44,025 nucleotides of DNA, taken from NCBI GenBank assembly GCA_015228925.1, contig JADGCQ010000018.1, positions 1 to 44,025 on the forward strand, given 5' to 3'. Both the position numbers and the translations under genes were made by a program. Under the pieces are notes generated by a model. It made no database searches and was not told where the DNA came from. It saw only the letters and a list, made by a program, of their open reading frames with translations. Each line of letters begins with the position of its first letter. Position 1 is the first letter of the stretch. This DNA comes from Magnetococcales bacterium. Its GTDB lineage: Bacteria; Pseudomonadota; Magnetococcia; Magnetococcales; UBA8363. This document shows, piece by piece, positions 8,451-43,901 of this stretch.

Positions 8451-8462
8451 CTTGAAAATGCC

Positions 8463-11400: not shown

Positions 11401-11762
11401 TTGGAGTTATGGATGGCACGGCATCGGACTTGCGCACGGGTCTCCCTTACCAGATGATTGAAATCCACGAAGCCATGCGGTTGCAAATTATGGTTGAAGC
11501 GTCCACTCAGGTTCTGACTGCTATCTACGAAAGGCAACCGTTGTTGCAGGAATTGGTCGGCAACGGGTGGGTATTGCTATCGGCCAAAAATCCCGATAGT
11601 CCTGAGATTCACATTTTTGAACCCAGCAGGGGTTGGGTGGCGTGGGAAAATCAACGGTTGCCACTTCCTGTTATCGCCTCCTCTTCGGCGTGGTACCGGG
11701 GCAACCGCGATCACCTGGGGCCTGCCAGGATCCAGACGACCCATGAGGTGCGTCATGGTTGA
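8463..11762 (+). CDS. dabA: DabA, inorganic carbon uptake subunit (DUF2309/UPF0753)
   Basis: A 1099-residue DabA protein, the zinc-dependent, carbonic-anhydrase-like partner of DabB. DAB complexes are known to use the ion gradient to hydrate CO2 in one direction and trap bicarbonate in the cytoplasm. The predicted metal and active-site residues are all present: Cys570 and Asp572 in VVFCMDDREEGIRRH, His761 in MGHGSDSKNN, and Cys776 in YDCGACSGRHGGPNAR. The N-terminus (PLKDFVHHNTLHAFQEYPF) and the late block GCGSKVTHNITGFFGVMDG are also typical. It is at the long end of the family. The stop overlaps the start of dabB by eight bases, a usual sign of coupled translation. It lies 12 bases after the first NuoM-like gene. 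Confidence 0.93.
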   Translation: MNDPSKEHHDIRNRLHHAIMHMEHRLVAQAPLKDFVHHNTLHAFQEYPFAAALTMAGKETGFDMFLSPARCREFLRRGRIVREDLMAVILGDANLEGDALIGDVQGRKLYKKDVLLCGLIHDIAAISATQLPWYVEEEEALQRFQPDLSQEMGQEILQNSGQTSESLAVGDLWSACLEVLSLHYRPGHPEELLDLSADQAEAMIMEFAQRTGSQEGESFRVRLQVRAEAVALLDELLQRIGPEWTVRRFLLAVTGTDILESIQPLLIRQMSNHMDLGIAAWQSGVKTEGFYPFWRHCARRDLGWIFDELSDWGEQVDQLPPNALDAIIAEMLALGLPETRWDDYLGRVCQELPGWSGMFAWRQNHPHYAGSDAGLALADYLAVRLILERLFAQELCRRTWKISPNLFFLRWYFHNNKSELIVRHALFNLSLPDHIIHHAQSLKDADPSPSIEEWRAVAHLIWTWRRGGTAVGTSANKHTLHQSGWRLFRLAQHLGLSGPSLRVLSLAQVETMLKCLDGLTPETSGFLWLQAYERGYRDQLFNAVCQNHGQGAWATRGQSRQLPVAQVVFCMDDREEGIRRHLEEHNPAIETLGAAGFFGVAINWKGVDDRFESALCPIVDKPTNKVLEVVEPEKGSRKHDHDRRLLTLGRLKNFLFNASRHTMVRGMVAVAVAAPAVLLSLTVKQWFPTGYGRWTRKIKTAWLPPLETVITVTAPDDGRMPSPEHNRLGFTDSEQAQRVGKFLRVIGLTSGFAPLVVMMGHGSDSKNNPHRAAYDCGACSGRHGGPNARVFAAMANRPQVRAILAKGGILIPQETLFVAANHNTCDESFTWYDGADIPPAAQPLVQHCISDIEYAARMSAQERCRKVVSSPDDPDPALALKHVQGRGQDISQARPELGHVTNAAAFVGRRSLSHGLFLDRRVFLISYDPLSDPEGEILEAILLNVTPVGAGINLEYYFSTVDNERMGCGSKVTHNITGFFGVMDGTASDLRTGLPYQMIEIHEAMRLQIMVEASTQVLTAIYERQPLLQELVGNGWVLLSAKNPDSPEIHIFEPSRGWVAWENQRLPLPVIASSSAWYRGNRDHLGPARIQTTHEVRHG

Positions 11763-13311: not shown

Positions 13312-13329
13312 ATCTAAAGAAGCCGATTC

Positions 13330-18688: not shown

Positions 18689-19109
18689 ATGAACATTCGC
18701 TATCCGGTTATTTTGGAACCACAAGAACCGACAGGATTCTTTGTCCGTTTTCCAGATTTGAGTGACACGTTCACCGAAGGAGCAACAGAGGAAGAGGCTT
18801 TGTTTAACGCCGCCGAGGTGTTGACGGCCATGTTGGAATGGCGAATGGACAACAACCAACCGTTACCAGAGCCTTCTACGGATGTGGTCGGAGCCACCGG
18901 ATATGTGGCACCGGACGCAAAGACTAGAAGCGGCTCTTCTTGTACGCCGATTCCGGGGAGACAGGTCCATGTCCGAAATTGCCAGAGCCATGGGAACTTC
19001 CTGGCCAGCGGCCAATCGGTTGGAAAATTGTCACCATTGGCCCTCATTGAAACAGCTTGAGAAGGTGGCTGCTGTTCTTGGTCATCGGCTGGTTATTTCT
19101 TTTGAATGA
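18689..19109 (+). pseudogene. HicB-type antitoxin broken by a frameshift
   Basis: Two frames together make one HicB. From 18689 the first frame gives the HicB N-domain (PVILEPQEPTGFFVRFPDLS, then FTEGATEEEALFNAAEVLTA and PLPEPST). From about 18915 the match moves to the +1 frame, giving LEAALLVRRFRGDRSMSEIA and later LEKVAAVLGHRLVISFE, the HTH C-domain, ending at 19109. The junction lies near 18915-18930. AAGG precedes the ATG by four bases. Either one base was gained (or two lost), or the assembly has an error. No working hicA is next to it, which favours true decay. Confidence 0.75.
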
Positions 19110-19138
19110 TTTTTTTTAAACGATTACCTGGTGAATCC

Positions 19139-21838
19139 ATGACCCCATCGCAACCTGTTCACGGCATTCCAGCCCTGAGTGATCAACTGGATGGCGGGGA
19201 TGTTCTGATCACCGTCAATCGTCGGTTATCCCGGCACCTTGCCCGAAGTATCAATGCCTTTAAGGTTTCCCAAGGGGTCGGTGCCTGGGGTAGTGCCGAG
19301 ATTATCCCTTTGTCGGCGTGGTTACACAAAAAATGGTTGGAAATTCTGGATCATGGTGCTGACCTGGAACAGGTTCCTCCAAGGCTCCTTTCGGGTTTGG
19401 CCGAAAGTCAGTTATGGGAAACCATCATTGGCGATCATGCCAAACGGGGACGGGCCATTCTTTGGCCACGGCAAACCGCATCTCTGGCGCAAAAAGGGTG
19501 GGAGCAGTTATTGCAATGGCGTTTGCCACCGCCAGTCGAGCAGTCCCGGGGGCATGAGGATACCGAAGCCTTTATTCAATGGGTGGCAACCTTTGAGAAA
19601 TATTTGGTGCGGGAAGGGTTGATCACTTCCGCCCAATTGCTGGGGTTCGTTGAAGGACAGTTGGATCGGTTGCCGCTTCCCCCCGGAATCATCTTGGCCG
19701 GTTTTGATGCCCCACCTCCGGCAACGGAACACTTTTTCTCTGCACTGCAAGAGCGGGGGATCAGGGTGGCGCATTATCAGCCGGAATCCTATCCCCCATC
19801 GGCGACCGTGCGGCTGTTGACAGATGGCGAAGAAGAAATTCGCAGTGCGGCGCAATGGGCTAAAACATGGTTGGAAGAGAGAAAAAAGGATGGGGATGCC
19901 GCTGGGACCGTCGGGATTATCCATCCCAACTTATCCCAATGGCGCAGCCAGGTCATCCGTATCTTCACCGAGGTGTTCTATCCTGGTGCTTTGGAATTCA
20001 ATACCCTGCCGGATCGTCCGGTATTTAATCTTTCATTGGGATTTCCCCTGATCCAAAGCCAGATGATCGCCGATGCCTTGTTTTTCCTTACCCTTTGTCG
20101 GGATGGTTTTTGTACCCCAGCTACGGCAAGACGCCTGTTGTTCAGTCCGTATTGCGCCGGTGGTGTCTCTGAACGTGCGGCGCGGGCTTTGCGGGATGTG
20201 CAGTGGCGTGAAATGGGCTGGGAACGCCTATCCCTGAAAGAGATGGCCGTTTTGGCCGAGGAAGGGGGGCAAACCCCTCTCTTGGCAAAGCTGGTGAATG
20301 ATCTGGCGGGGTGGGGGACACACGAGGCGATGACCTCTTTGGAACACCCCCCGTGGGAATGGCCGGGTCGATTCTCCAAAGTGTTGAAACAGATGGGTTG
20401 GCCAGGGGAAAAATCATCGTCCAGTACCGATTTTCAATTGCTCGATTCCTGGGAATCGTTGCTGGAAAGCTTGGCGGTGCTGGCGATGGTGCCAATCGCT
20501 ATGGATTATTCCAGAGCTTTGACGATTTTGCATGATGTAGCGGGATCGACGGTGTTTCAGCCCGAAGGGGGGGCGGATGCCCCGATACAGATTCTTGGAT
20601 CGCTGGAAGCAGGCGGAGAAACATTTGCGGCATTGTGGATCATGGGGTTGTCCGATGATGTATGGCCCCCCCGTCCTGAGCCGAATCCATTCCTCCCCCG
20701 CGCATTTCAAAGAGATCATGATATGCCCCGTTCCTCCAGTGGGCGTGAATATGATTTTGCCGCCAAAATTACCCACTATCTCCTGGGGGCGGCACCCACC
20801 GTCATCGTGAGCGCACCACAGCGCGATGGCGATTTGGAACTGCGTATCAGCCCTTTTCTGCGTGGGATGACCCAAACACCATCCCCAGAAGTGGCACACC
20901 CCGATTTTTCCCATTTGGTCCTTCAGTCCGGGTACCTGGAGGAAATATCGGAAGATCGTCCACCTCCGTTGCCAACCAAAGAGACCTTTTCTTGTGGCAC
21001 CGGCTTGCTCAAAGCGCAATCGTTGTGCCCGTTTCAGGCATTCGCCCGCTACCGATTGTTTGCCCAATCTTTGCCGGATATCCAGATGGGGCTTTCGCCG
21101 ATGTTACGGGGGCAGATCACACACCGCGTCCTGGCACAGTTATTGGCCAAAAATTTTTCCATGAAACAGTGGCGGACATTGCCGGAAGACCAGCGTTTGG
21201 CGGCCATGGAAAAGGCGTGCCGTCAGGGGATTGCGTTGGAGGCGAAAGAATTGGAAAAACGGGTTCCTCAAGGATTGTTGGAACTGGAGTATTTCCGGCA
21301 GATCTCCCTGTTGCAAAAATGGATGGCCATCGAGGAGCGTAGGGAGGCCGATTTTATTGTGCATGAAGTGGAAAAATCTGGAACCATGCACATCGGTTGC
21401 CTGGATCTGCGTTATCGTATGGATCGTGTCGATCGGCTGGAAGCGGATCACCGGGTTCTCATCGACTATAAAACCGGCATGGTCAAAATCGGCGACTGGT
21501 TTGGTTTGCGCCCCAGAGATCCGCAAATGCCTTTTTATGCCTTGGCTTTGGATGAGGGGAAAATGGTCGCTATGGCGTATGGGCAGTTATCGCGCCAATT
21601 GAAAGGGTTTGTGGGTTTGACGCAAAAAGCGGGGATACTGCCGGGTATTGCCGGGATCAAAGGTTATCAGGATGAACTGGATGACACGGAAATGGAGGAT
21701 TTGACGCAAACTTGGCAGTCTAACATTCAGCAATTGATTGCGGAGTTTTCCCAAGGAGAAGTGCGCGTTGATCCTCTGGCAGGAGCCTGTGGGCAGTGTG
21801 ATCTGGGGCCTTTGTGCCGGTTTGATGAAACGATCTGA
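19139..21838 (+). CDS. AddB-like PD-(D/E)XK nuclease with Fe-S cluster motif
   Basis: An 899-residue protein like the probable DNA repair proteins (TIGR03623 type) that pair with UvrD-type helicases. The N-terminal half is a helicase-like AddB fold without a clear Walker A. The C-terminal third is a RecB-family nuclease: IDYKTG with Asp776 and Lys778. A four-cysteine iron-sulphur pattern is present, Cys630 in AQSLCPFQAF and Cys884, Cys887 and Cys893 in ACGQCDLGPLCRF. With the next gene it would process double-strand breaks for recombination. The ATG at 19139 is chosen; an ATG at 19106 overlapping the hicB stop has no ribosome site. The helicase gene starts eight bases after its stop. Confidence 0.82.
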   Translation: MTPSQPVHGIPALSDQLDGGDVLITVNRRLSRHLARSINAFKVSQGVGAWGSAEIIPLSAWLHKKWLEILDHGADLEQVPPRLLSGLAESQLWETIIGDHAKRGRAILWPRQTASLAQKGWEQLLQWRLPPPVEQSRGHEDTEAFIQWVATFEKYLVREGLITSAQLLGFVEGQLDRLPLPPGIILAGFDAPPPATEHFFSALQERGIRVAHYQPESYPPSATVRLLTDGEEEIRSAAQWAKTWLEERKKDGDAAGTVGIIHPNLSQWRSQVIRIFTEVFYPGALEFNTLPDRPVFNLSLGFPLIQSQMIADALFFLTLCRDGFCTPATARRLLFSPYCAGGVSERAARALRDVQWREMGWERLSLKEMAVLAEEGGQTPLLAKLVNDLAGWGTHEAMTSLEHPPWEWPGRFSKVLKQMGWPGEKSSSSTDFQLLDSWESLLESLAVLAMVPIAMDYSRALTILHDVAGSTVFQPEGGADAPIQILGSLEAGGETFAALWIMGLSDDVWPPRPEPNPFLPRAFQRDHDMPRSSSGREYDFAAKITHYLLGAAPTVIVSAPQRDGDLELRISPFLRGMTQTPSPEVAHPDFSHLVLQSGYLEEISEDRPPPLPTKETFSCGTGLLKAQSLCPFQAFARYRLFAQSLPDIQMGLSPMLRGQITHRVLAQLLAKNFSMKQWRTLPEDQRLAAMEKACRQGIALEAKELEKRVPQGLLELEYFRQISLLQKWMAIEERREADFIVHEVEKSGTMHIGCLDLRYRMDRVDRLEADHRVLIDYKTGMVKIGDWFGLRPRDPQMPFYALALDEGKMVAMAYGQLSRQLKGFVGLTQKAGILPGIAGIKGYQDELDDTEMEDLTQTWQSNIQQLIAEFSQGEVRVDPLAGACGQCDLGPLCRFDETI

Positions 21839-21846
21839 GGATTGAA

Positions 21847-24800
21847 ATGATGCCATTGATTGACCATTCGGCACGCACAACCGCGTTGGACATAACCCGA
21901 TCCTTTATCGTTCAGGCCCCGGCGGGTTCGGGAAAAACCGGATTGTTGACGCAAAGGATTTTGGCACTTTTGGGGAGCGTGGAGCAGCCCGAAGAAATTG
22001 TCGCCATCACCTTTACCCGCAAGGCGGCGGCGGAAATGAAGCAGCGGGTATTGCAATCGTTAGCGAATAAGACGCCACCTCCCCCAAAGGATTCTTTTGC
22101 CCAGAAAACCTGGGATCTCGCTCAAATCGTCTTACAAAGAGACCACCAACGGCAATGGCGGTTGCAGGATAACCCCAACCGTTTGCATATCATGACCATC
22201 GATGCCCTGTGCCATGCCATGGTGAGACAATTACCCCTCCTGACCGAATTGGGGGGTAAGGCGACGTTGACGGAATATCCCCAAGTGTTTTACCAACGCG
22301 CTGCACGAGAAACCTTGGATGTGTTGGATGTCGATGTCCCCTGGAAATGGGCGGTGGTCCGTCTTTTTAAACATTTGGATAATGATTGGGCCAGGGTTGA
22401 ATCCATGCTGGCCGACCTGCTGGCCCGTCGTGATCAATGGCTGCGCCATGTGGGGCAAGAGGTCGATGAATCCTTGCGCAATCGCCTCAACGCCAGCCTT
22501 AAAGCCATGATTCGCTTGGAGTTGCAAACGGTTCGCGGGATGATTTCCCCGCCGATGTGGAGAAAAATAATCCCCATCATGGATTTTTCCCGGCGGCAAC
22601 TGGCTGCCATCAGCGAAAACGGATCACCGTGGATTGGGCGAACCAACCCTCCCGGCAGTGAAGTCGAGGATGTCCCTTTATGGCATGAACTGGCGGAGAC
22701 GCTACTAACCAGGGATGGAGGATGGAGAAAACAAGTCAATATCAGACATGGTTTTCCCCCCAAGTCCAAAGCGAGTACCGCGAAGGAGGGGACTCTTTGG
22801 GATTCCATGAAAAAAGAGACTCTCTGGCTGATTGACCTATTGGCGGGGGTGGATCATCTGGGCGAAGTGCTGCACGCGGTGCGCCAAGTGCCGGCAGCCT
22901 TGTATTCTCAACAACAATGGGAAATTCTTCAGGCATTATTGACCCTCCTCAAGGTGGCTGCCGGTCACTTGATGGTTCAGTTTGCGACCCAGGAGGTGGT
23001 TGATCATGCGGAGGTGGCCCGGCGGGCGATCCTGGCATTGGGGGCGACCGATAACCCTTCCGAGTTGGCTTTGCGCTTGGATCACCGTATTCGCCATCTC
23101 CTGGTGGATGAGTTTCAGGATACCTCGCGTTTGCAGTATGAACTCTTGGAACGGTTGGTGGCGGGATGGGAACCGGATGGGGGGAATACCCTGTTTTTGG
23201 TCGGCGATCCCATGCAATCCATCTATCGATTTCGGGAAGCGGATGTGGGGTTGTTTTTGACGGTGCAACGGGAAGGGATTGGCTTGGTCAAAACGGTTCC
23301 GCTGCATCTGGTCGTCAATTTTCGTTCTGTCCCAGGTATTGTGAACTGGGTCAATGCGGCGATGCAAACCGCTTTTCCCGCGATGGCACGCCCGGAAATG
23401 GGGGCGGTCCCGTTCCAGGCTTCGCAGGCGAACTCCCAGGAACAGAGTGATACGGCGGTGACGATCCAGGGATGTGATGATCGTGAGGCTGAAGCGCGTG
23501 AAGCCGTGAATTTGGCAGCCCAGGCGATGAAGCAACACCAAAGTGTCTGTATCCTGACCCGCACCCGCAACCACCTCATCCACATCCTGCCGCTACTGGA
23601 TGAGGAAAATTTAAGCTACCAGGCGGTGGATTTATTTCCCCTGGCTGGGCGGATGGTGATCAAAGATTTATTGGCACTGACACGCGCCTTGATCCATCCT
23701 GGGGATCGCATCGCTTGGCTGGCATTACTCCGCGCCCCTTGGTGTGGTTTGTCGCTGTCGGATCTTCTGGCATTGACGCAAGGGAAATCCAAGGCGACCA
23801 TCCTCGATTGCTTGAATCATCCCGAATGCGATGATCAGGTTTCCGCTGTGGGAAAAACCATTCTGGCACGGGTACGCCCCATCTTGAATACCGCACTGGC
23901 CCAGAGGGGTCATTGGAACCCGTTTCCAGGTCCGGGGACATTGCGGCGTTGGATTGAAGGAACCTGGCGGCAGTTGGGTGCCTCGGCCACTTTGGATAGC
24001 CCCCACCATTTGGAAGATGCAAAAAGTTTTTTCGATCTTTTGGAAACGATGGAAAGCGGTGGTCGTGAATTGGATGCCCAAACGCTGGAAAACGCGGTAT
24101 CTAACCTTTTCTCCGGGATCGACCCCCGCGCTTCCCAGTCCAAACTGGTGGTGATGACCATACACAAGGCCAAAGGGTTGGAGTTTGATTGTGTCATCAT
24201 CCCCGGTGTGGATCGACAGCCAAGATCAGATTCAGCGCAACTTCTGTTGTGGATGGATCCACTGGTTCAGTCGGGGGGGGGCTTGTTTGAAGAATCCATG
24301 GCCCCGTTGCTGGCTCCCATCGGCAGTTGGGATGGGGGGGATGGCGATCCTATCTACCGTTTTATCCAGGGGATGGAACAGGAAAAGTCACACAATGAGG
24401 TGTGTCGATTGCTGTATGTCGCGGTGACGCGGGCGAAAAAACAGTTGCATCTTCTGGGGTTATCGCAAAAAGTAGATGGCGGGCCAGCGTCAGGTTCATT
24501 TTTGGCGGCGTTGTGGTCATGCGTCGGTGAAACGTTTGCGACACGAGAGGCGGACTTGGCCTTGGACGAAGAGGTTCAGGATGCAACCAGGATCATCCCG
24601 CCCCATGTTCGTCTTCGCGCCGATTGGCACTGGCCCCCAAAGCCTGCCTGGATGGGACAATCCGATCTTCCCGATATACACCATGGCGAGCCTATCCTGT
24701 TTGACTGGGTTGGTACCGAAGCGCGTTTGGTGGGGGTCGTCATGCACCGTTTTCTGGCCCGCATGGCTACCGACGGTGTTGAACAATGGTCTCCCACACG

Positions 24801-25242
24801 CATTGCGCAATACCGAGATGTTTTCAGGAACCATCTGGTTACGTTGGGGATGGCGGAACCTTTTATGGATGCTGCCCTGGAAGGGGTGACCAGGGGACTT
24901 GTCACCGCATTGACTTCCCAAAAGGGACGTTGGGTTTTGGATGCGCAGCATCAGGAATCCCGTTCGGAATGGGGGGTGACGGGGGTGGAGAAAACAGGGA
25001 CTGTGAGCGTGACCATCGACCGTTCTTTTGTGGATCGGGAAGGCCATCGCTGGATCATCGATTATAAAACCAGCCGACACGAAGGGGGGGATAGAGAGGG
25101 TTTTCTGGCCAATGAAAAGTTACGTTATCAGGAGCAAATGGATCGCTACGCCCGGCTGGTGCATGCCATGGAGAGCCGCCCTATCCGTTTGGGATTGTAC
25201 TTTCCGTTGATGGATGCATGGCTGGAATGGTCCTGGGGGTGA
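21847..25242 (+). CDS. AddA-like UvrD-family helicase-nuclease
   Basis: A 1131-residue superfamily 1 helicase with a RecB-type nuclease tail. Walker A is APAGSGKTGLLTQR (Lys30), followed by VAITFTRKAAAEMKQRVL. Motif II/III region is LLVDEFQDTSRLQYELLE and FLVGDPMQSIYRFREADVG. Later motifs are VMTIHKAKGLEFDCVIIPG and RLLYVAVTRAKKQLHLLG. The C-terminus has RWIIDYKTSRHEGGD, the nuclease motif, near residue 1070. AGGA lies six bases before the ATG. Together with the AddB-like gene it forms an AddAB-type break-repair enzyme. Such enzymes load RecA and degrade linear DNA ends, including phage DNA. It converges with cheV. Confidence 0.88.
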   Translation: MMPLIDHSARTTALDITRSFIVQAPAGSGKTGLLTQRILALLGSVEQPEEIVAITFTRKAAAEMKQRVLQSLANKTPPPPKDSFAQKTWDLAQIVLQRDHQRQWRLQDNPNRLHIMTIDALCHAMVRQLPLLTELGGKATLTEYPQVFYQRAARETLDVLDVDVPWKWAVVRLFKHLDNDWARVESMLADLLARRDQWLRHVGQEVDESLRNRLNASLKAMIRLELQTVRGMISPPMWRKIIPIMDFSRRQLAAISENGSPWIGRTNPPGSEVEDVPLWHELAETLLTRDGGWRKQVNIRHGFPPKSKASTAKEGTLWDSMKKETLWLIDLLAGVDHLGEVLHAVRQVPAALYSQQQWEILQALLTLLKVAAGHLMVQFATQEVVDHAEVARRAILALGATDNPSELALRLDHRIRHLLVDEFQDTSRLQYELLERLVAGWEPDGGNTLFLVGDPMQSIYRFREADVGLFLTVQREGIGLVKTVPLHLVVNFRSVPGIVNWVNAAMQTAFPAMARPEMGAVPFQASQANSQEQSDTAVTIQGCDDREAEAREAVNLAAQAMKQHQSVCILTRTRNHLIHILPLLDEENLSYQAVDLFPLAGRMVIKDLLALTRALIHPGDRIAWLALLRAPWCGLSLSDLLALTQGKSKATILDCLNHPECDDQVSAVGKTILARVRPILNTALAQRGHWNPFPGPGTLRRWIEGTWRQLGASATLDSPHHLEDAKSFFDLLETMESGGRELDAQTLENAVSNLFSGIDPRASQSKLVVMTIHKAKGLEFDCVIIPGVDRQPRSDSAQLLLWMDPLVQSGGGLFEESMAPLLAPIGSWDGGDGDPIYRFIQGMEQEKSHNEVCRLLYVAVTRAKKQLHLLGLSQKVDGGPASGSFLAALWSCVGETFATREADLALDEEVQDATRIIPPHVRLRADWHWPPKPAWMGQSDLPDIHHGEPILFDWVGTEARLVGVVMHRFLARMATDGVEQWSPTRIAQYRDVFRNHLVTLGMAEPFMDAALEGVTRGLVTALTSQKGRWVLDAQHQESRSEWGVTGVEKTGTVSVTIDRSFVDREGHRWIIDYKTSRHEGGDREGFLANEKLRYQEQMDRYARLVHAMESRPIRLGLYFPLMDAWLEWSWG

Positions 25243-33717: not shown

Positions 33718-36700
33718 ATGAAGAAAAAAGTTGTTTTTGTCGTTATTTTTCTTTGTTGGTTGTCCTTCGTATTCAACGGGAATGCCCTGACACTCAGTGC
33801 TTTGTCGGGTCGTTCTTTGAATAACATCTCCGATCAGGCAACTTTGGATCTGTTCAATAAAATAAAAGATGGTTCAAAGGATTCCAGAACAAACCATCGT
33901 GCGCCGAATGATGAAGGCAACCTTGATTCGGAGGTACCCGGGAATCAGGGGATGAATCTGAACGCGATGGAGGAGACCAAAACGCCACCATTTTATGCTG
34001 AAACCTATCCTGCTGATCTGCAACTCTTTGGTCAGGAATATTTTGTACAGGGCAATATTCCAAGGCCCGGGGGACAACTCGCCACGATCCCGGGAGATTA
34101 TGTCTTGGGACCGGGGGATGAGTTTCGCCTTTTGTTTACGGGAAAAGAATTGAAGGAAGTGGATGTTTTTGTCGATAATGAAGGGCAGGTTCTTGTCCCC
34201 GATATGGGATTGGTACCTGCCGCAGGATTGCGATTCAATGAATTTAAAACAATGTTGGCCAGCAAAATTAAACAAAAATTAATAGGTTTGGAACTGGATC
34301 ATATCGCGACGACCAACCTGCGCACCATCCGGGTTTTCTTGCTGGGAAATGTCAGAAAACCAGGGACACACACCATTTCTGCGCTGTCATCGGTCATGCA
34401 GTTGTTGCTGGATACCGGGGGGATTCTCCCTGTTGGCTCATTGCGCACGCTCCAAATCAAACGGGTTGGTTCGCCCGACAAAAAACTGGATCTTTACAAC
34501 GTTCTGATTGGGGGAAAAAACGATGGTGACCTTCGCCTTCAGGATGGTGATACCGTTTTTGTCCCCACCATCGGCAAAACTATCGCTCTGACAGGAACCG
34601 TCAAAAAACCGGCTATCTATGAACTTTCCAATGAAAAGACCATCGATGAAGCATTGCAGTTGGCGGGGGGGATGTTGCCAAATTCTCAAAGTATCAAGGT
34701 TGAACGGATCAGCAAAAATAAAAATCGTATCGTCGTCGATCTTGACTTGAGGGACTCTGCGAGTCTTCATGCCGCCATCAAATCGGGTGATATTGTCCAT
34801 GTGCTTCCCGCATCCAACGCCCGGAGAGATACGGTCACTTTACTGGGTTATGTCGAACGTGGTGGTGTATTTCAATGGACCAAATCCATGAAATTAACCG
34901 ACCTGATTTCTGGGCCTTCCGAATTGTTGCCACAAACCGATTTGTCCCACGTCCTTATTATTCGCACCAACCCAAGAAATCGTCAGCTTGAACCGCTGTC
35001 GGTCAATTTGGAACGGGCGTTGATGGATCGTTCCTCGGCGGACAATATCACCCTGGAACCCAATGATCAGATTCAGTTGTTCAGTCTGGGGTCCGACCGT
35101 TCGCAAAATGTGCAATCGGTTGTGGACCGGCTTAAAAATCAGGGAAGATTCAATCATGCCGATAAAACGGTCACCATTAAAGGAAATGTCCGATTTCCTG
35201 GCGATTATCCGTTTGTCAACAATATGGACCTGCGGCAATTGATCACCGCTTCCGGCGACATTCGTGACAATACCGACATGGATTATTGCCTGATCGCCCG
35301 CTCTGACTATCTGGGACGTCTCCAACCTTTTTCTGTACGTTTGCGGGAAGTGCTTGGGATGGAAGGGGGGACACGAAATATCCCATTGAACCCAAGGGAT
35401 CAGGTATTCGTATTTCGCATCGATGAAAAGCATAAGGATTTGTCTAAGGATAAACTCCTCCCCATGAGAGATTTTGGGGCTGACAAGGAATTATTTGAAG
35501 ATAAAATACGACGCCAGGAAGAAGCTTGTAAGAAAAGAATATTGCTAGAAAATCAAAGGAGCAATAAAGGTCAGGAGATGGATCCGCAGTCCATGTTGGC
35601 CATGCATAAAATGCAACTGCAACAATGCCAGTTTGGGGATCTTGACCAAGACCAGACTCAGGATGAATATCAGGATGAGTATCGGGACCAGTATCAGGAC
35701 CAGTATCAGGACCCATATCGGGATGATGCGGGGAGGGATCAGCGTTCATACCAGGGTCAATACCGGAATGGGGATCTCGGCAACGATTCGGGACGTTTTC
35801 TGAATCAGAGTCTGAGTCAGAACCAAGACCAGCAGCGTATCGGGAATGCGATACCGCCCCAAGGTTTAGCCCAGGACCGGGATCTATCCCGACAGAATTT
35901 GACGCAACCCGGTACCCATGGAATCGATATTGCCCTTGAAAATGAAGAGATGGAAAACGCCCTGGTGGGGTTTCTTCTTGGTGGCAGTAACACGGATCTG
36001 GTGGAAAGAAATACCAGAAGTGCTTATCTCAATCAGTTGGTCGATCCGGTCCAATATGAGAACCAGGCCCGCCTTCTTCAGGTATTGAAAAAGAAAAAGG
36101 AACTTCGCCAATTTGTTCGGGAAGAACTTCATCCGACACGGGAGAGGAGGGTGCCTCCGCGTCAGGTTTTGTTAAAACCAATTTTGCTGAAAATGCAGGA
36201 ACAGGCGACCCGGAAATCACCCGCACGGATCATTCAGATTGGTGGTGCCGTCCGTTACACGGGAAAATATCCTCTGGAACCGGGTATGCGTATCAGCAAT
36301 CTATTGTTGGCGGGGGGGGGATTGTCCGAACCAGCTTATTCCCTGGAGGCGGAGATATCGCACTTTGAGGTCGATGACGACCAATCGATGCGGATGCGCC
36401 ATTCAACCGTGGATCTGTTTAAGGTGATCCAGGGGGATCCTGCGGCGGATCAGATTTTGCAACCGTATGATATTGTCATCATCAAGCAAAATCCCAAATG
36501 GGCCGAGGTCAATTCGGTGATCATCGAAGGCAATGTCCGCTTTCCGGGTGTTTATCCCATTCAACCGGGGGAAAAACTGACTCAGGCTGTGGAAAGGGCC
36601 GGGGGGTTGACAGAATTGGCCTATCCAGAATCGGCGGTTTTCACCAGAAAGGCCCTCAAGGAGAAAGAACGTCGGGAAAATCATAATCTGATTGCACGCA

Positions 36701-37275
36701 TGGAAACTCAGTTGATGCAAACTTTATATAATAAGCAATCGGATAAAGAAGCGGCTGCTCCGACGACGGTTATGATCGAGGAGCTTGTTGCCAAGCTGAG
36801 AAATACAAAACCGATGGGTCGGTTGTCCATTGACCTTCCGGAAATCTTGAGTAACCCCAACGGAGCCAGTGATTTAATGCTCCAGGATGGGGATCGGCTG
36901 GTGATACCCCAAAGAACGGATGAGATTACCGTCATGGGGGAGGTCTATTTTCCGACATCGCACCAGTTTTTATCGGACAAGGATGCGGAAACCTACATTC
37001 AGGCCAGTGGGGGATATACGACCAATGCGGATGATGACAGTGTTTATATCGTCCGCGCCAATGGGAGTGTATCCTCCAAAAAACAGAAGGGAGGGTTTCC
37101 CGGGTTTGGTTGGTTTGCCAGTGTGGACACCATGAGGTTGGGACCGGGAGATACCGTTGTGGTTCCCATGAATGTGGAAAAGATTCCAAGCTTGACACTG
37201 TGGAAAGATATCTCACAGGTTCTCTATAATCTAGCCGTCACGACGACGGCACTCAGATCGGCGGGTGCTTTCTAA
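33718..37275 (+). CDS. Giant SLBB-domain polysaccharide export protein (Wza-like)
   Basis: A 1185-residue exported protein of the outer-membrane polysaccharide export group, with a signal peptide (VVFVVIFLCWLSFVFNGNA). A poly-export domain starts near residue 124 (PGDYVLGPGDEFRLLFTG). Seven SLBB domains are seen near residues 203 (FLLGNVRKPG), 288 (ALTGTVKKPA), 371 (LLGYVERGG), 484 (IKGNVRFPGDY), 837 (IGGAVRYTGKY), 932 (IEGNVRFPGVY) and 1069 (MGEVYFP). Wza has two or three and about 380 residues, so this is about three times the usual size. Between SLBB 4 and 5 lies a ~265-residue low-complexity insert rich in Gln, Asp, Asn and Tyr. No glycosyltransferase or Wzc neighbour is here. A strong terminator follows at 37315. 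Confidence 0.85.
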   Translation: MKKKVVFVVIFLCWLSFVFNGNALTLSALSGRSLNNISDQATLDLFNKIKDGSKDSRTNHRAPNDEGNLDSEVPGNQGMNLNAMEETKTPPFYAETYPADLQLFGQEYFVQGNIPRPGGQLATIPGDYVLGPGDEFRLLFTGKELKEVDVFVDNEGQVLVPDMGLVPAAGLRFNEFKTMLASKIKQKLIGLELDHIATTNLRTIRVFLLGNVRKPGTHTISALSSVMQLLLDTGGILPVGSLRTLQIKRVGSPDKKLDLYNVLIGGKNDGDLRLQDGDTVFVPTIGKTIALTGTVKKPAIYELSNEKTIDEALQLAGGMLPNSQSIKVERISKNKNRIVVDLDLRDSASLHAAIKSGDIVHVLPASNARRDTVTLLGYVERGGVFQWTKSMKLTDLISGPSELLPQTDLSHVLIIRTNPRNRQLEPLSVNLERALMDRSSADNITLEPNDQIQLFSLGSDRSQNVQSVVDRLKNQGRFNHADKTVTIKGNVRFPGDYPFVNNMDLRQLITASGDIRDNTDMDYCLIARSDYLGRLQPFSVRLREVLGMEGGTRNIPLNPRDQVFVFRIDEKHKDLSKDKLLPMRDFGADKELFEDKIRRQEEACKKRILLENQRSNKGQEMDPQSMLAMHKMQLQQCQFGDLDQDQTQDEYQDEYRDQYQDQYQDPYRDDAGRDQRSYQGQYRNGDLGNDSGRFLNQSLSQNQDQQRIGNAIPPQGLAQDRDLSRQNLTQPGTHGIDIALENEEMENALVGFLLGGSNTDLVERNTRSAYLNQLVDPVQYENQARLLQVLKKKKELRQFVREELHPTRERRVPPRQVLLKPILLKMQEQATRKSPARIIQIGGAVRYTGKYPLEPGMRISNLLLAGGGLSEPAYSLEAEISHFEVDDDQSMRMRHSTVDLFKVIQGDPAADQILQPYDIVIIKQNPKWAEVNSVIIEGNVRFPGVYPIQPGEKLTQAVERAGGLTELAYPESAVFTRKALKEKERRENHNLIARMETQLMQTLYNKQSDKEAAAPTTVMIEELVAKLRNTKPMGRLSIDLPEILSNPNGASDLMLQDGDRLVIPQRTDEITVMGEVYFPTSHQFLSDKDAETYIQASGGYTTNADDDSVYIVRANGSVSSKKQKGGFPGFGWFASVDTMRLGPGDTVVVPMNVEKIPSLTLWKDISQVLYNLAVTTTALRSAGAF
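35662..35721 (+). repeat. Five 12-bp tandem repeats inside the SLBB gene
   Basis: Five 12-base units of the form GACCAGTATCAG, some slightly changed, lie end to end and in frame, encoding DEYQ-DEYR-DQYQ-DQYQ-DPYR from residue 649. Similar half-units flank the array. They form the core of a Gln/Asp/Tyr-rich low-complexity insert. Array length could vary between strains without breaking the frame. Confidence 0.85.
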
Positions 37276-37357: not shown

Positions 37358-37488
37358 AACACTCTTGCGATTAATCTTGGCAGAGCGTATGAAATCCCTG
37401 CATGTTGCCACACTGTTTGTGCTACCATGCACCTGGGATTCATTAATGGATGTGCATTGCCAAAATCGGAAAATGGGTTGCTGAACCT

Positions 37489-39570
37489 ATGAATAATTAT
37501 TGGTCAAAAGAGGGTGCCCAGGAATACTTGGCCCGGTTTGGTTCCCGTTTTGGAGAAAAACTGGCCCTCAGAACCTTCACAAGCCGCTTGTTGGGGCGCG
37601 AACCACGGCTGGTGCTTCACGGTGGTGGCAATACCTCGGTCAAAGGGGAGATGACCGACGTTTTTGGTCAGCGGGTTATGGCTGTTTTCATCAAGGCTTC
37701 CGGTGTGGATCTGGCCCGGATATCCCCCGAAGACCACCCCGCACTCAATCTGGAAGGGTTGCTGCGACTCAGGCGGTTGTCCACCCTTTCTCCGCAGGCG
37801 ATGGTCAACCAACTGCGCCTCAACTTGTTTGACGCCGCAGCTCCCACCCCCTCCATTGAAGCACTCATGCACGCTTTTTTACCGCATCCGTTCATCGATC
37901 ATACCCATCCCGATGCGATTTTGACTCTAGGCAACCAACCCGATGGTGTCCAACGCCTGAAAACGGCCCTCGGACCCCAGGTGATCATTCTTAACTATAT
38001 CCACCCGGGGTTTGAACTGGCCCAAGCGGTCGCTTCCGCCTGGGAGGGGCAGCCCGACGCCCAGGGGATGGTCCTGATGCACCATGGGTTGATCACCTGG
38101 GGCGATTCGGCGCGGCAATCCTATGAGCAGACCTTGGAACTCGTCAACCGTGCCGAGAAGGCCATTCAGGCGAACCTTGCCGACGCCAGAAAGATGACCG
38201 TTTCTGTAACATCAGGGGGATCTTACCCTTCCTGGTCGGAAGTGGCCCCACTTCTTCGCGGTGCTTTGGCTCACCCCACGGGTTCCGCCGATCAACCATT
38301 CAAACGGTTTATCCTCCGCGCTATGGATGATCCAGACACCCTGGCCTTGTTGCAACATCCCGATGCCGTCCAGCACTTTGTCAGCGGTCCTTTGACCTCG
38401 GACCATCTGATCCGGTGCAAACCGTGGCCTTTGTGGATCGACGATCCGAGTCATATCCGGGAGGCGGTACAGCGGTATCGTGACGACTATCATGATTATG
38501 TGCAGCGGCATGTGGGATCCATGGAGGCGGGGAGTTCCATCATCGATGATGCGCCTCGGGTGGTGTTGATGCCGGGGGTCGGGGCTTTTATCGCAGGAGA
38601 AAATGCTTATTTGGCTGACGTGGCGCGGGATATTACCCGGCAAACCCTCAACGTCAAGGCCGATATCGCCGCCATGGGATCGTTCCAGGGGCTTGATGAG
38701 CAGCAACTTTTCGATATGGAATATTTTTCCCTGCAACAAAACAAACTTCGCCGTGATACGACGCCTCGATTGCAGGGGTGCGTTGCCGTCATCACCGGTG
38801 CGGCGGGGGCGATTGGATCGGGTATTTGCCGACGCTTGCTGATGGAGGGGGTTCACGTTGCCGCAACGGATCTGGGTGGTGATCCCCTGGATTCATTGGT
38901 GAACGATCTGGCAGCGGTGGCCCGGGAGCGGGTTATCGGGGTCGCCATGGATGTGACGGAGGAACAGTCGGTTGCGGCGGGATTGCGGCAGGTGATTCAA
39001 ACGTGGGGGGGGATCGATCTGGTCATCATCAATGCCGGTCTGGCCCATGTCTCACCGTTGGCAACCTTGGAAATGAACAAATTTCGTAAACTTCACCAGG
39101 TCAATGTGGAAGGGACGCTCAACCTGTTGTCTCACATGGCCCGTTTGTTTGAACGCCAACAGATGGGGGGCGATATCGTGGTGATTTCCACCAAGAATGT
39201 TTTTGCTCCAGGGGCCAGTTTTGGGGCGTACAGTGCCACCAAGGCGGCATCACACCAATTGGCCCGGATCGCCAGTCTGGAGCTGGCTCCGTTGGGCGTG
39301 CGGGTCAACATGGTCTCTCCCGACGCCGTTTTTTCCGATGGCCAGCGTAAATCGGGGTTGTGGGCCGAAGTCGGTCCTGACCGTATGCGTGCCCGTGGAC
39401 TGGACGAGGCGGGATTGGAGGCGTATTACCGCAACCGCAACCTCCTGAAAGTCGCTGTAACCGCCGATCATGTCGCCAACGCCGTGATGTTTTTTGCCAC
39501 CCGGCAAACACCGACAACGGGAGCCACCATTCCGGTCGATGGGGGATTGCCCGACGCAACGCCCAGATAA
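37489..39570 (+). CDS. Bifunctional class II aldolase / short-chain dehydrogenase (RhaD-like)
   Basis: A 693-residue fusion. The N-terminal half (~1-420) is a class II aldolase/adducin domain: LVLHGGGNTSVKGEM, zinc-type His in PHPFIDHTHPDAIL and in GMVLMHHGLITWGDSARQSY. The C-terminal half (~430-693) is a short-chain dehydrogenase: nucleotide loop AVITGAAGAIGSGICRRL, LVIINAGLAHVSPLATLE and the catalytic FGAYSATKAASHQLARIASL. This matches the bifunctional rhamnulose-1-phosphate aldolase/lactaldehyde-dehydrogenase-like family, which splits a sugar phosphate and oxidises the aldehyde, but the natural substrate is not certain. The start at 37489 fits the family; 37450 would add 13 residues. No other rhamnose gene is present. 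The HA-repeat gene starts 14 bases after its stop. Confidence 0.85.
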   Translation: MNNYWSKEGAQEYLARFGSRFGEKLALRTFTSRLLGREPRLVLHGGGNTSVKGEMTDVFGQRVMAVFIKASGVDLARISPEDHPALNLEGLLRLRRLSTLSPQAMVNQLRLNLFDAAAPTPSIEALMHAFLPHPFIDHTHPDAILTLGNQPDGVQRLKTALGPQVIILNYIHPGFELAQAVASAWEGQPDAQGMVLMHHGLITWGDSARQSYEQTLELVNRAEKAIQANLADARKMTVSVTSGGSYPSWSEVAPLLRGALAHPTGSADQPFKRFILRAMDDPDTLALLQHPDAVQHFVSGPLTSDHLIRCKPWPLWIDDPSHIREAVQRYRDDYHDYVQRHVGSMEAGSSIIDDAPRVVLMPGVGAFIAGENAYLADVARDITRQTLNVKADIAAMGSFQGLDEQQLFDMEYFSLQQNKLRRDTTPRLQGCVAVITGAAGAIGSGICRRLLMEGVHVAATDLGGDPLDSLVNDLAAVARERVIGVAMDVTEEQSVAAGLRQVIQTWGGIDLVIINAGLAHVSPLATLEMNKFRKLHQVNVEGTLNLLSHMARLFERQQMGGDIVVISTKNVFAPGASFGAYSATKAASHQLARIASLELAPLGVRVNMVSPDAVFSDGQRKSGLWAEVGPDRMRARGLDEAGLEAYYRNRNLLKVAVTADHVANAVMFFATRQTPTTGATIPVDGGLPDATPR

Positions 39571-39584
39571 ATCTTCCCATTGCC

Positions 39585-42500
39585 ATGATGACTCCTCATA
39601 GAGACCGAATCCGATTTCTTGACGAAGAACTATTTCATGATCTGACCTCGTTTGCGGAACTTGAGGGGCGGATCCTGAAATTGGAAGATCGGCTGCGGAG
39701 AAAAAATGCTTTTGCCATTTTTGCTGAGGGTTATTTGACCCTGAGATTTTTCCCCAGGACGGTGGAATTGTTGCCCGCCCACCGTTTGACCGAGAATCAT
39801 CATGGTCGCCTCTCCATTCCGAAAAATCTGCCCGCCGTAGATGGTTATCTCTATTTGGCTGAGAGTGGTTGCCATCCTTTCCATCTGCTTTTTCACGATG
39901 ATGCCGAACAACCCTCCGCCGAGGTCTACGCCCCTTTTGAACAATTGTTGAAACAGAGCTATTGGCCGTTGCTTGTGACCAATTTGCGGCAACTGCCAGA
40001 ACATTTGTTGAAGACTGAGGGTTTTCAGCATGTGAGCGGCACCCAATTGGATCGTTTATCGCCCTCCTGGTTTGCCCATTTTCTCCGTTGGTTGCAAAGT
40101 GGCCAGTTAACGCGGCGTCCTACCCTGCCACCACCATGGATGATCGATACTATTCAACGTCTGCGTGCCATGCCCCCCGGAGTTGTCACGGTGACGATGC
40201 CCGATGGACCGGAACAAGATGAATTTTTGTTTCATTTGGCTACGGGGCCTGGTCCCAGGCGATTGACTTTGGTTTTGACGCCCGGTGCTGGGCGTATTTT
40301 GGATATCATGACCCATTGGCGTAAGCTGGTCCCTTCGGTGCCGTTATCATCTTTGTGGGTGGTTTCCGGCAGGGAGATCGATAAAAATGAACATCTTCTT
40401 CCTGGAGAAATGGATTTTGTCCGCTGCCAGGATGTTGCGAGTATTCGTCATTTTTTTGCCCCTCGGGATGGCAATCCCAGAATTTTGTGGGCGACCTACG
40501 CATCCCTCCCGATGATTGGGCAGGCGCAACTGGGGTTGTCCCCCATCGACCTGATAGTGTTGCCCGACAGTCATCTTTTGGCCCAGCAATCTCGATTGTA
40601 TGAATCTGTCCTCTCCTCCAGTTTCCCTTCGTGCCGCTTACGGTTGCATATCACGGCACTGCCCAAACGGACCAATCCGTTAAAAATGAATCGTCAGGAA
40701 CAGCCGACAACGATTTATTCCCTGGATGATATCGGGCAGTTTGGTGCCGTGACTTGTTTGTCCACCTTATCCCAGTCCCGTGACCGGCAGGCTGTTCGCA
40801 GCTGGAAGGTGTTGCTGATCCCCTTGGCAGGGGATGATTTACCGGAATCCGAGGCGTTTTTGGTCAACACGTTGGCCGGTTGTCTGACCCGGTATCCTGA
40901 TGTCCGCCATGTCCATGTTGCGACGCCGTGGGGCGGTCACCGCCGGATCACCATTCCAGACCAGGGCGATTTTACAGTTTTTTCCTTGGATTCAAAACAG
41001 GATGCCCTGGCTTGGCAATGGACGTTGGGACTTTTCTCACGGGAGCAGCGGGCCGTCCTTTCTGTTGCTTCCATTCCTCCCTATGTTCGTCACGAGGCAA
41101 CGTGTGATCTCACGGTGTTGCCGTCGCATTCCAAGGTGGATGCCGGTTCATGGCCGGAACGGATTGGGGCGGTTTTACGCCCTCACGGGGAGTCGAAGAG
41201 AGGTTTGATTGCAATCGGTTTCCGCCAGGGGGTGGCGGATGTTTCTGGAGAATGGACGGATGATTCCTATCTGGATCCGGTGTGTTTGGCGTTACAAACT
41301 TTGCGCGATATGGATGGCGATTTTGATCAGGCCGTTCAGAATGCGCGTATTGAACGGGGGCGTACCGGTTTTTGGAATCTGGAACCTTTGAACCGTTGGA
41401 TCGAATGGGTTGGGGATTTTTCAGGGGATGAATCGTTGCCAACCCGGTTCATGGAACGGTTGCTGACCCGCTTGACCTCTTCGTGGCAGCAGGGTTTGGG
41501 GGCGTTGATGGGGTATCACGCGCAATGGGGACATAGCGATGTTCCGGCAGGGTTTGTGGACGATCTGACGCTGGCCACCTGGGTCGATGGGCAGCGTAAG
41601 GCGTATGCGCGGGGGTGGCTGGATGCGGATCAGATTGACCAGTTGCATCGGTTGCATTTCATCTGGGATCCCAAACAGGCGGCCTGGGATCACATGTGGT
41701 CTATGCTCGCCGCTTTTCATGCCCGACATGGGCATTGCCATGTGAAACACCCTGATCCCGAAGATGGATCCCTTTCCCAGTGGGTGCTGCGGCAGCGGCG
41801 TGATTATCAGCATCGGCGTTTGGAGTCGGGGCAGATTGAACGATTGGAATCTTTGGGGTTTATTTGGGATGTGGATGTGTGGGAGTGGGAACTTTATTTT
41901 GGCAAACTGGTCCGGTTTAAATCTTTTGCCAACCATGCGTGGATCACCGATCCCTTTCCCCGGGATCCAGAATTGGGTGCTTGGGCTGCCCGGCAGCGCA
42001 TGTTGCGGCAAAAACAATCCTTGGATGAAAATCGTCGGATTCGGTTGGATGAGGTTGGTTTTGTGTGGGATTTGGCGGCGGCGGCGTGGCACCAAAGTTT
42101 TCAACAGTTGGTGATGTTTCGACGTTTGTATGGCCATGCCCAGGTCGAGGAGGGGGATGCCCGTTATCCCCAGTTGGCGGTGTGGAGTCGTGAGCAGAGG
42201 AATGGGCGATTGCGCAATCAACTGACCCTGGACCAGATACAAAAACTGGATGAACTGGGGTTTGTTTGGGATCTGGAAGCGGCGCACTGGCAAAAGAAGT
42301 TTAAACAATTCAAAGCGTTTAAACTGCGTTATGGCCATTTGCGTCTCAAGGATGGCGACGCAACCTTGTTGCAACCCTTGGTGGTGTGGAGCGAGGAACA
42401 GCGGCAGTTGCGGGCAAAAAATCGGCTTGATCCCGAACGTGTTAACCGCCTCAACGCCTTGGGAATGATCTGGACGGATAAACAAGAACAGTGGGAAGCT

Positions 42501-43901
42501 TTGTTTGGACGATTTTTGCAGTTTAAACGGCGGCATGGGCATGGTGATGTTCCCGACCGGTTTTCCGCAGATCCCGAACTGTGTGGTTGGGCGCAGGATC
42601 AACGCCGGGAGTATCGGCGTGGTGTCATGGATGAGGAACGACGGTCCCGCCTGACGATGGCTGGCTTTGTCTGGGATCCCCAGGCTTACTATTGGGAACG
42701 GATGTTGAATAAGTTTGCCTGGTTTCAGCGGCATCATGGGGAAGATGATCCCACTGCCGTTGATCCCTCTCTGGCATCGCTGGCCGATTGGATGGCCAGT
42801 CAAAGACGTATGCGGGTTTCGGGTCGTTTGGATGAAAAACGGATCGGGCAATTGGATGCTTTGGGATTTGTTTGGGATATCGAAGCCAAGTTTGAGCGGG
42901 AGATGATGGTGGCGTTGCAACGCTTTATGGATCACCATGGGCATTGCAACATTCCCCCCGATTTTGACAAACCGCAGGCGTTGTCTTCCTGGGTTCGAAA
43001 ATTGCGGACGCGCAAGGCGACTGGAGGGTTATCCCAGGATGTGGAAGAGACGTTGACAAAGATGGGGTTTGTCTGGGATCCCAAGGAAGCGGCTTGGGAA
43101 GAGATGTTTTCCGCCATCGAAACTTTCAATCGGGAGCGGCATCATTGCATCATACCCGAAATCTTTCCCGAACATCCGCGACTGCCGCAGTGGGTCAAAG
43201 GGTTACGTAAGCAATATAAAAATAATGAGTTGGATGAAGAAAAAATTGCGCGTCTGGATCGGGTGGGATTTGTCTGGGATGCCAAGGCAGTTTTTTGGGA
43301 GGAGATGTTCGTGGCTTTGACGGGTTATCATGACCGGTTTGGCCATTGCTTGGTTGCGGAAAGCGAACCGCAATATTCCAAACTGGCATGGTGGGTTGCG
43401 GCGCAGCGTAAGGCTCGGGCTGGCGGGCAATTGAATGAAAGGCAGATTCAGCGGTTGGATCGTTTGCATTTTGTCTGGGATATCCATGCGGCACAATGGT
43501 TGGAGGTGTATCGAGAATTGTTCTTTTTCCACCAACGTCATGGCCATTGTTTGGTCAGGAATGATTCGCCGCAGAATGTCCGTTTGAGCGATTGGTGCAG
43601 CGTGCAACGTAAAGCCAGGGCCATGGGACACTTGGCACCGGAAAAACAAGAACGACTCGATTTACTTGGGTTTATCTGGGATCCTAAGGAAGTGATCGTG
43701 GAAGAGATGCTCATGGATCTGGTCCGCTTCAAGGAAAAATTGGGTCATTGCAATGTCCCGGTCCCCTGGCCGGAGAACCCACAGCTTAGTTTGTGGCTTC
43801 AATTTCAGCGACAATCGCATAAAAAGGGGAATCTGGATCCTCAGCGTAAGGCCCGTCTGACGGATATGGGGATGGATTGGGATTGGGAAGGCGAGACTTG
43901 A
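39585..43901 (+). CDS. Pseudo-helicase with twelve helicase-associated (HA) repeats
   Basis: A 1438-residue protein in three parts. Residues 1-~165 are unlike anything I know. Residues ~166-625 keep the outline of a DEAD/DEAH helicase with lost catalytic motifs: the Walker A place reads TMPDGPEQDEFLF, the DEAH place reads DLIVLPDSHLL, motif III reads HITALPKR, and motif VI reads WPERIGAVLRPHGESKRGLI, where active relatives have QAVGRALR. Residues ~626-1438 hold twelve HA repeats of ~67 residues, each with a G-H-C/G-x-V centre, a W-V/A-x-x-Q-R block and an ending L-D-x-L-G-F-V/I-W-D. HA domains are thought to bind nucleic acid. The protein should thus bind DNA or RNA without unwinding it. It has no clear ribosome site and follows the aldolase gene by 14 bases; ATG 39588 is an equal start. 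What it does is unknown. Confidence 0.8.
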   Translation: MMTPHRDRIRFLDEELFHDLTSFAELEGRILKLEDRLRRKNAFAIFAEGYLTLRFFPRTVELLPAHRLTENHHGRLSIPKNLPAVDGYLYLAESGCHPFHLLFHDDAEQPSAEVYAPFEQLLKQSYWPLLVTNLRQLPEHLLKTEGFQHVSGTQLDRLSPSWFAHFLRWLQSGQLTRRPTLPPPWMIDTIQRLRAMPPGVVTVTMPDGPEQDEFLFHLATGPGPRRLTLVLTPGAGRILDIMTHWRKLVPSVPLSSLWVVSGREIDKNEHLLPGEMDFVRCQDVASIRHFFAPRDGNPRILWATYASLPMIGQAQLGLSPIDLIVLPDSHLLAQQSRLYESVLSSSFPSCRLRLHITALPKRTNPLKMNRQEQPTTIYSLDDIGQFGAVTCLSTLSQSRDRQAVRSWKVLLIPLAGDDLPESEAFLVNTLAGCLTRYPDVRHVHVATPWGGHRRITIPDQGDFTVFSLDSKQDALAWQWTLGLFSREQRAVLSVASIPPYVRHEATCDLTVLPSHSKVDAGSWPERIGAVLRPHGESKRGLIAIGFRQGVADVSGEWTDDSYLDPVCLALQTLRDMDGDFDQAVQNARIERGRTGFWNLEPLNRWIEWVGDFSGDESLPTRFMERLLTRLTSSWQQGLGALMGYHAQWGHSDVPAGFVDDLTLATWVDGQRKAYARGWLDADQIDQLHRLHFIWDPKQAAWDHMWSMLAAFHARHGHCHVKHPDPEDGSLSQWVLRQRRDYQHRRLESGQIERLESLGFIWDVDVWEWELYFGKLVRFKSFANHAWITDPFPRDPELGAWAARQRMLRQKQSLDENRRIRLDEVGFVWDLAAAAWHQSFQQLVMFRRLYGHAQVEEGDARYPQLAVWSREQRNGRLRNQLTLDQIQKLDELGFVWDLEAAHWQKKFKQFKAFKLRYGHLRLKDGDATLLQPLVVWSEEQRQLRAKNRLDPERVNRLNALGMIWTDKQEQWEALFGRFLQFKRRHGHGDVPDRFSADPELCGWAQDQRREYRRGVMDEERRSRLTMAGFVWDPQAYYWERMLNKFAWFQRHHGEDDPTAVDPSLASLADWMASQRRMRVSGRLDEKRIGQLDALGFVWDIEAKFEREMMVALQRFMDHHGHCNIPPDFDKPQALSSWVRKLRTRKATGGLSQDVEETLTKMGFVWDPKEAAWEEMFSAIETFNRERHHCIIPEIFPEHPRLPQWVKGLRKQYKNNELDEEKIARLDRVGFVWDAKAVFWEEMFVALTGYHDRFGHCLVAESEPQYSKLAWWVAAQRKARAGGQLNERQIQRLDRLHFVWDIHAAQWLEVYRELFFFHQRHGHCLVRNDSPQNVRLSDWCSVQRKARAMGHLAPEKQERLDLLGFIWDPKEVIVEEMLMDLVRFKEKLGHCNVPVPWPENPQLSLWLQFQRQSHKKGNLDPQRKARLTDMGMDWDWEGET
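41475..43895 (+). repeat. Twelve ~201-bp degenerate repeats coding HA domains
   Basis: The 3' 56 percent of the gene is a head-to-tail array of twelve units of about 67 codons. Repeats are clear in protein but well diverged in DNA, so the array is old and held by selection. Conserved landmarks in most units are an opening W-x-x-x-F/M/L, a central H/Y-G-H-C, W-x-x-x-Q-R, and the closing L-G-F-V-W-D. Unit 7 has lost the GHC-type centre (HHGEDDP) and unit 3 reads FANHAWI there. Confidence 0.85.

Follow-up and report, generated by a model that had tools for sequence, protein, structure and literature searches.

A Magnetococcales protein family descended from a nuclease–motor enzyme has lost both catalytic centres and carries an array of HA repeats

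The window analysed here, a 44,025-nucleotide stretch of a Magnetococcales genome, encodes a large protein, present in almost all sequenced magnetotactic cocci, that is the descendant of a DNA-cutting, DNA-tracking enzyme, and both catalytic centres have been lost in every relative that we examined. Because the two centres are gone throughout the family and a string of HA repeats stands intact beside a sugar-metabolism gene, the protein probably acts by binding or as a scaffold, and the first-pass annotation, made from the sequence alone, was probably right to use the latter word. We lean towards the reading that this is a domesticated, doubly inactivated relative of nuclease–motor enzymes, kept as an ATP-independent binding scaffold or regulator that is tied to an aldolase operon.

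Results

Architecture of the protein

The gene is an uninterrupted frame of 1438 aa that starts 14 bp past the stop of the upstream gene, as read from the junction sequence. The whole gene and the two regions that precede the HA repeats are as follows:

39585..43901, + strand: whole gene, pseudo-nuclease, pseudo-SF2 motor and 12 HA repeats (homologues in 44/48 genomes of the order)
39585..40079, + strand: PD-(D/E)XK (Mrr-like) domain, predicted to be inactive, residues 1–165 (AF2 model, Foldseek, residue tallies)
40080..41459, + strand: SF2 helicase-like two-RecA region, catalytically degraded, residues 166–625 (profile, hhalign, AlphaFold/Foldseek)

A Pfam scan of residues 1–625 alone matched no family, and no NCBIfam model matches the HA-repeat protein. 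Pfam found no coupler, N6-methyltransferase or Type_ISP_C specificity domain in it.

The motor region keeps the SF2 fold and lacks the catalytic motifs

The homology of residues 166–625 to SF2 enzymes is far beyond chance. A phmmer search of the PDB with the single sequence gave E 0.002 to LlaGI and LlaBIII, barely a signal. The 32-sequence family profile matched LlaBIII (4xqk) with E 1e-36 over profile positions 62–595 and LlaGI with E 7e-36, and hhalign returned a probability of 100 both against active HA helicases (E 1.5e-60, columns 176–633) and against type ISP N-termini (E 3e-48, columns 1–633). An AlphaFold model of residues 1–637 was built from a 13-sequence alignment (mean pLDDT 73.9, pTM 0.46), and LlaBIII was its best PDB match by E-value in Foldseek (1e-14); the TM-scores were low, so the arrangement of the domains in this model is uncertain. 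Profile, hhalign and model agree on two RecA-like domains homologous to those of SF2.

The first-pass annotation had proposed that the motifs follow the SF2 order and that each catalytic motif is altered. This was borne out, and the remnants that it quoted sit at the right places, with all residue tallies and catalytic-motif counts taken from 32 aligned homologues:

40197..40232, + strand: degenerate Walker A, MPDGPEQDEFLF replacing MACGTGKT, with Gln211 at the Lys position (Lys absent in 32/32 homologues)
40563..40574, + strand: motif II remnant PDSH (residues 327–330) for DEAH (first, Walker B, Asp in only 1/32 homologues)
40650..40661, + strand: motif III remnant I356TAL for TAT (alignment)
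41157..41180, + strand: motif VI remnant ERIGAVLR (residues 525–532) for QxxGRxxR (Arg finger position 529 is Ala; Arg in 1/32)

The Walker A place reads M205-PDGPEQD instead of MACGTGKT, GTGKT being replaced by GPEQD, and none of the three motifs of an active SF2 helicase or translocase (Walker A GxGK[ST], DExH and QxxGRxxR) is present. Scanning the whole window protein revealed no intact P-loop elsewhere. A P-loop scan across the family proteins also found none, except for a GxxxxGKT at residue 791 of the protein from genome G042, which is a chance match far from the Walker A place. The second position of motif II is acidic in 25/32 homologues. We infer that the dead motor works independently of ATP; on sequence alone, it may retain some ATP binding.

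In one genus group (g7; loci L049, L050, L054, L055, L057, L059 and L073) the stretch around motifs II–III is visibly shortened. The helicase core in these loci looks as if it were eroding further, with the HA repeats staying.

The N-terminal domain resembles an inactivated Mrr-like nuclease

Residues 1–165, modelled alone with AF2, gave a confident structure (pLDDT 86.3, pTM 0.85). The Foldseek list for this model was led by PD-(D/E)XK proteins (MspJI, AspBHI, BstEII, AF1548, Kpn2I, EcoO109I and Bax1), and LlaBIII had the top TM-score in it (0.51, rmsd 3.7, prob 0.89); the best E was 0.024, no match fell under E 0.001, and unrelated folds were listed too. Compared alone, the domain shows weak similarity by sequence (hhalign E 6e-4, probability 29). 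In the profile alignment the nuclease Asp is matched by Asp86, and the catalytic Lys of IQ[AC]KF by Leu102. Asp86 is kept in 23/32 homologues, and the QxK of an active Mrr nuclease is not present, the catalytic Lys being absent in 32/32.

Because the model is PD-(D/E)XK-like, the profile aligns Asp86 and Leu102 with the nuclease centre and the Lys is missing throughout, we read residues 1–165, fairly confidently if not with certainty, as an inactivated Mrr-like PD-(D/E)XK nuclease. The earlier suggestion that these residues may carry the real activity of the protein is thus probably wrong, and the same model and absent lysine do not favour an unknown new enzyme at the N-terminus.

The retention of Asp86 and of an acidic residue at the second position of motif II could be taken as signs of a non-canonical but active ATPase or nuclease. 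We regard this as highly improbable, given that the Walker A Lys and the nuclease Lys are absent in all homologues, that the Walker B Asp survives in a single one and that the motif II–III stretch is shortened in one genus group.

The HA repeats are the best-constrained part

Pfam PF03457 matched 12 stretches of the frame (E 7e-158, 513.6 bits against a gathering score of 28.4), each repeat scoring over the cut-off, which is exactly the number of repeats that had been claimed. These 12 are also the only HA matches in the whole 4.25 Mb genome.

41478..41660, + strand: HA repeat 1 (PF03457)
41676..41861, + strand: HA repeat 2 (PF03457)
41883..42062, + strand: HA repeat 3 (PF03457)
42081..42263, + strand: HA repeat 4, presence variable among families (PF03457, family alignment)
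42282..42467, + strand: HA repeat 5, presence variable among families (PF03457, family alignment)
42483..42668, + strand: HA repeat 6, presence variable among families (PF03457, family alignment)
42687..42869, + strand: HA repeat 7 (PF03457)
42900..43070, + strand: HA repeat 8 (PF03457)
43086..43271, + strand: HA repeat 9 (PF03457)
43293..43472, + strand: HA repeat 10, best conserved among those present order-wide (PF03457)
43488..43673, + strand: HA repeat 11 (PF03457)
43701..43874, + strand: HA repeat 12 (PF03457)

Among the repeats found throughout the order, those at the C-terminus are the most conserved; repeats 4–6 come and go. Family-wide, the signature Arg of W...QR is retained in 96.5% of 287 HA repeats. 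HA domains are presumed to be nucleic-acid-binding modules; a literature search for PF03457 and the helicase associated domain found no functional paper on a bacterial HA repeat. We infer that the window protein binds a putative nucleic acid ligand and has a role beside the aldolase. Most members of the family have HA regions of near-neutral or acidic charge, so the main rival is protein binding, for example to the co-encoded enzymes. The HA domains here are the best-constrained part beside a dead motor and can therefore be studied without a confounding helicase.

The family is near-universal in the order and under purifying selection

A contig search with the single window protein found no match; when a one-family alignment was used as the query, relatives were found. 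The family profile detected the protein, usually as a single copy, in 44/48 Magnetococcales genomes, and a full-length member in 0/251 other sampled genomes of the phylum, where the matches were type ISP enzymes, active HA helicases or weak helicase matches. HA domains scored above cut-off in 40/48 genomes of the order, mostly in 8–13 copies, and in 4/351 other genomes. Four genomes of the order have the N-terminal part and no HA matches, and in these the gene reaches or nears a contig end. The Magnetococcales orthologues are all inactive, the relatives outside the order being intact helicases or type ISP enzymes. A phage or plasmid origin of the gene was rejected: viral contigs held no family relative, and the plasmid matches were HA helicases or type ISP enzymes only.

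All regions of the protein are under purifying selection. In close pairs, dN/dS was 0.07–0.24 for the N-terminal domain, 0.10–0.31 for the SF2-like region and 0.06–0.18 for the HA repeats, comparable to the 0.09–0.18 of the neighbouring aldolase. A helicase fold is thus kept under selection with its catalytic motifs lost, as in a pseudohelicase of the Utp25 type. Order-wide conservation and dN/dS rule out a lone decayed copy.

Broken frames occur in two relatives, as a frameshift in G046 and as split frames in G006 (L171 4383–6085; L044 3–1795), through either loss or assembly error.

That the family as a whole is the decaying pseudogene of a mobile restriction enzyme is barely conceivable. 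Such decay would account for the copies that are broken or missing and for the faster evolution of the SF2 part; it is largely refuted by the dN/dS values (0.06–0.31), by the conserved gene pair with the aldolase, and by the roughly 30 genomes, of many families, in which the frame is long and intact.

Pieces of a possible active form were found outside the order. Outgroup G104, from another family of the phylum, carries an intact Mrr_cat_2 with a GTGKT stretch and a motor end with 8 HA repeats on two contigs (L182, G104:C79; L112, G104:C95), and these pieces may belong to one gene or several. Their sequences suggest that an active form with nuclease, motor and HA repeats may exist. A complete protein of this kind was not recovered beyond the G104 pieces, as tblastn with the N-terminal fragment of G140 found no match in plasmids and phages. 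The G140 fragment (L183, G140:C33) is a frame of just 54 residues that matches the N-terminal domain.

The gene is linked to an aldolase gene throughout the order

The upstream gene encodes a bifunctional enzyme:

37450..39570, + strand: bifunctional class II aldolase/short-chain dehydrogenase (SDR), the upstream partner (NF006194 above cut-off, PF00596 and PF00106; adjacency in 37/40 loci)

Its true start is probably Met14. Loci of the family counted as informative when their upstream sequence reached 2 kb or more, which left 40. The aldolase/SDR (NF006194) lies upstream on the same strand in 37 of these, within 250 bp in 33, and an LsrF-like thiolase (NF006081 in G018) lies upstream of the aldolase in 23. 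The gap to the HA gene is 2.4 kb in G031 and 1.1 kb in G044, and the upstream aldolase is missing from the loci of G021, G035 and G042. In G010 a strongly diverged aldolase (35–38% identity) adjoins the HA gene even so. The other neighbours of the HA gene vary between families.

Several observations concern the wider locus. The aldolase/SDR and the LsrF-like thiolase form a recurrent Magnetococcales gene cluster (window 37450–39570, loci L039–L078). G010 and G021 belong to one family and share the strongly diverged aldolase (35–38% identity; L072 6435–8405, L152 5297–7270), which in G021 lies away from the HA gene. A 1185-aa multi-SLBB polysaccharide-export-like protein is encoded upstream of the aldolase (window 33718–37275) and is conserved there within the genus only. 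Elsewhere in the window are a DabA inorganic-carbon transporter subunit flanked by three proton-antiporter-type (NDH-like) proteins (6987–14874) and, not adjacent to the HA gene, a PD-(D/E)XK protein adjoining a UvrD-type helicase-nuclease as an AddB/AddA-like pair (19106–25242).

Both genes are missing in G015 (99% complete) and G004 (78%). G016 and G017 have the aldolase and lack the HA protein, so the aldolase does not need the HA protein. Divergence of the HA protein is correlated with that of the aldolase (Mantel r 0.78, 0/2000 permutations), as vertical inheritance alone predicts. Vertical inheritance and operon inertia could be enough to preserve the adjacency without a direct functional link.

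The linkage bears on what the protein binds. The HA array and the dead motor may bind protein rather than nucleic acid and so, as an enzyme scaffold, organise or regulate the operon's aldolase/SDR and thiolase, a reading that the tight order-wide linkage, the correlated divergence and the neutral to acidic HA arrays would all fit. We consider it doubtful: the HA repeats retain the W...QR signature of HA domains on active motors, the aldolase is kept without the HA protein in two genomes, and vertical inheritance by itself would produce the correlation.

A defence role, in which the dead restriction-type motor would bind foreign DNA as a decoy, sensor or regulator, for example as the regulatory partner of an active system, seems unlikely. 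The ancestry in restriction-type enzymes points that way, as do the intact type ISP-like enzymes in some genomes of the order (L110 in G010, L111 in G041). Against this, the gene is near-universal, mostly vertical and linked to metabolism, no restriction-modification (RM) gene recurs among the neighbours of the family, and the PADLOC match of the window protein to an RM model is not significant (E 0.03). One relative matches an RM model weakly (E 5e-4).

Discussion

The domesticated binding protein that we favour could have arisen as follows. The front 625 residues have the layout of the type ISP front half, an Mrr-like nuclease followed by an SF2 motor, and an HA array is attached to them as it is in SF2-plus-HA helicases. 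Nuclease and ATPase catalysis were lost across the order, most simply before the Magnetococcales radiated, and the near-universal, usually single-copy gene has since been passed on mostly vertically, in one operon with the bifunctional aldolase/SDR and often the LsrF-like thiolase too. The fold would serve as an ATP-independent binding platform and the HA array would make repeated contacts with nucleic acid, so that the protein could be tied to the aldolase operon as a scaffold or as a regulator of expression, in the way that dead helicase folds are put to use in RecC and Utp25.

A more specific version may be put forward tentatively: perhaps a single domestication of a restriction-type nuclease–motor took place at the root of the magnetotactic cocci, after which the protein lost both centres and became a core component of the whole order, whose HA array reads DNA or RNA and controls or organises the aldolase/thiolase operon. 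If true, a nuclease-helicase enzyme would here have become a non-catalytic core protein, fixed in an order and under selection, in a bacterial example beyond RecC/AddB. The Magnetococcales, known mostly through their magnetosomes, gain a gene family specific to their lineage, whose link to an operon can be tested.

Comparison with known systems

The first-pass annotation knew of no described system with this layout. That holds for the double inactivation fixed across the order and for the conserved aldolase operon, which appear undescribed; it does not hold for the domain order, as nuclease plus SF2 is the type ISP front half and active SF2-plus-HA proteins are common. The best match in sequence and structure is to the type ISP enzymes LlaBIII and LlaGI (PDB 4xqk, 5ffj), in which an Mrr-like PD-(D/E)XK domain likewise precedes the SF2 RecA pair. 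Unlike them, the window protein has neither catalytic centre and no coupler, methyltransferase or target-recognition domain, and carries twelve HA repeats instead. The genuine type ISP enzyme of locus L110 does carry coupler, N6-methyltransferase and Type_ISP_C domains (Pfam).

Active SF2-plus-HA helicases, common among the plasmid matches, share the LlaGI-like SF2 core, with HA repeats behind it (a Hydrogenophaga plasmid, L109; Streptomyces/Streptosporangium plasmids, L158, L160 and L161). They keep GxGKT, DEAH and QxxGRxxR, their HA region is much shorter than that of the window protein, and the five that we examined begin at the motor, without an N-terminal domain. In L161 and other Streptomyces linear plasmids the HA helicases lie ~0.6–2 kb from the plasmid ends, a position known for TtrA-like telomere-linked helicases.

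RecC has inactivated helicase domains and an inactivated nuclease domain; it handles DNA and has been implicated in recognising Chi (PMC1185551). RecC, an SF1 protein with another domain order that is complexed with active motors in RecBCD, differs from the window protein, and we claim no homology; the likeness would be functional only, in that dead helicase domains and a dead PD-(D/E)XK domain have been retained as a scaffold that handles DNA. Utp25, which has been called a validated pseudohelicase (PMC9539457), is a eukaryotic DEAD-box-like protein of ribosome assembly, unlike the window protein in having neither nuclease fold nor HA repeats. The two are alike in keeping the SF2 fold, with catalytic motifs that in Utp25 are dispensable (PMC9539457).
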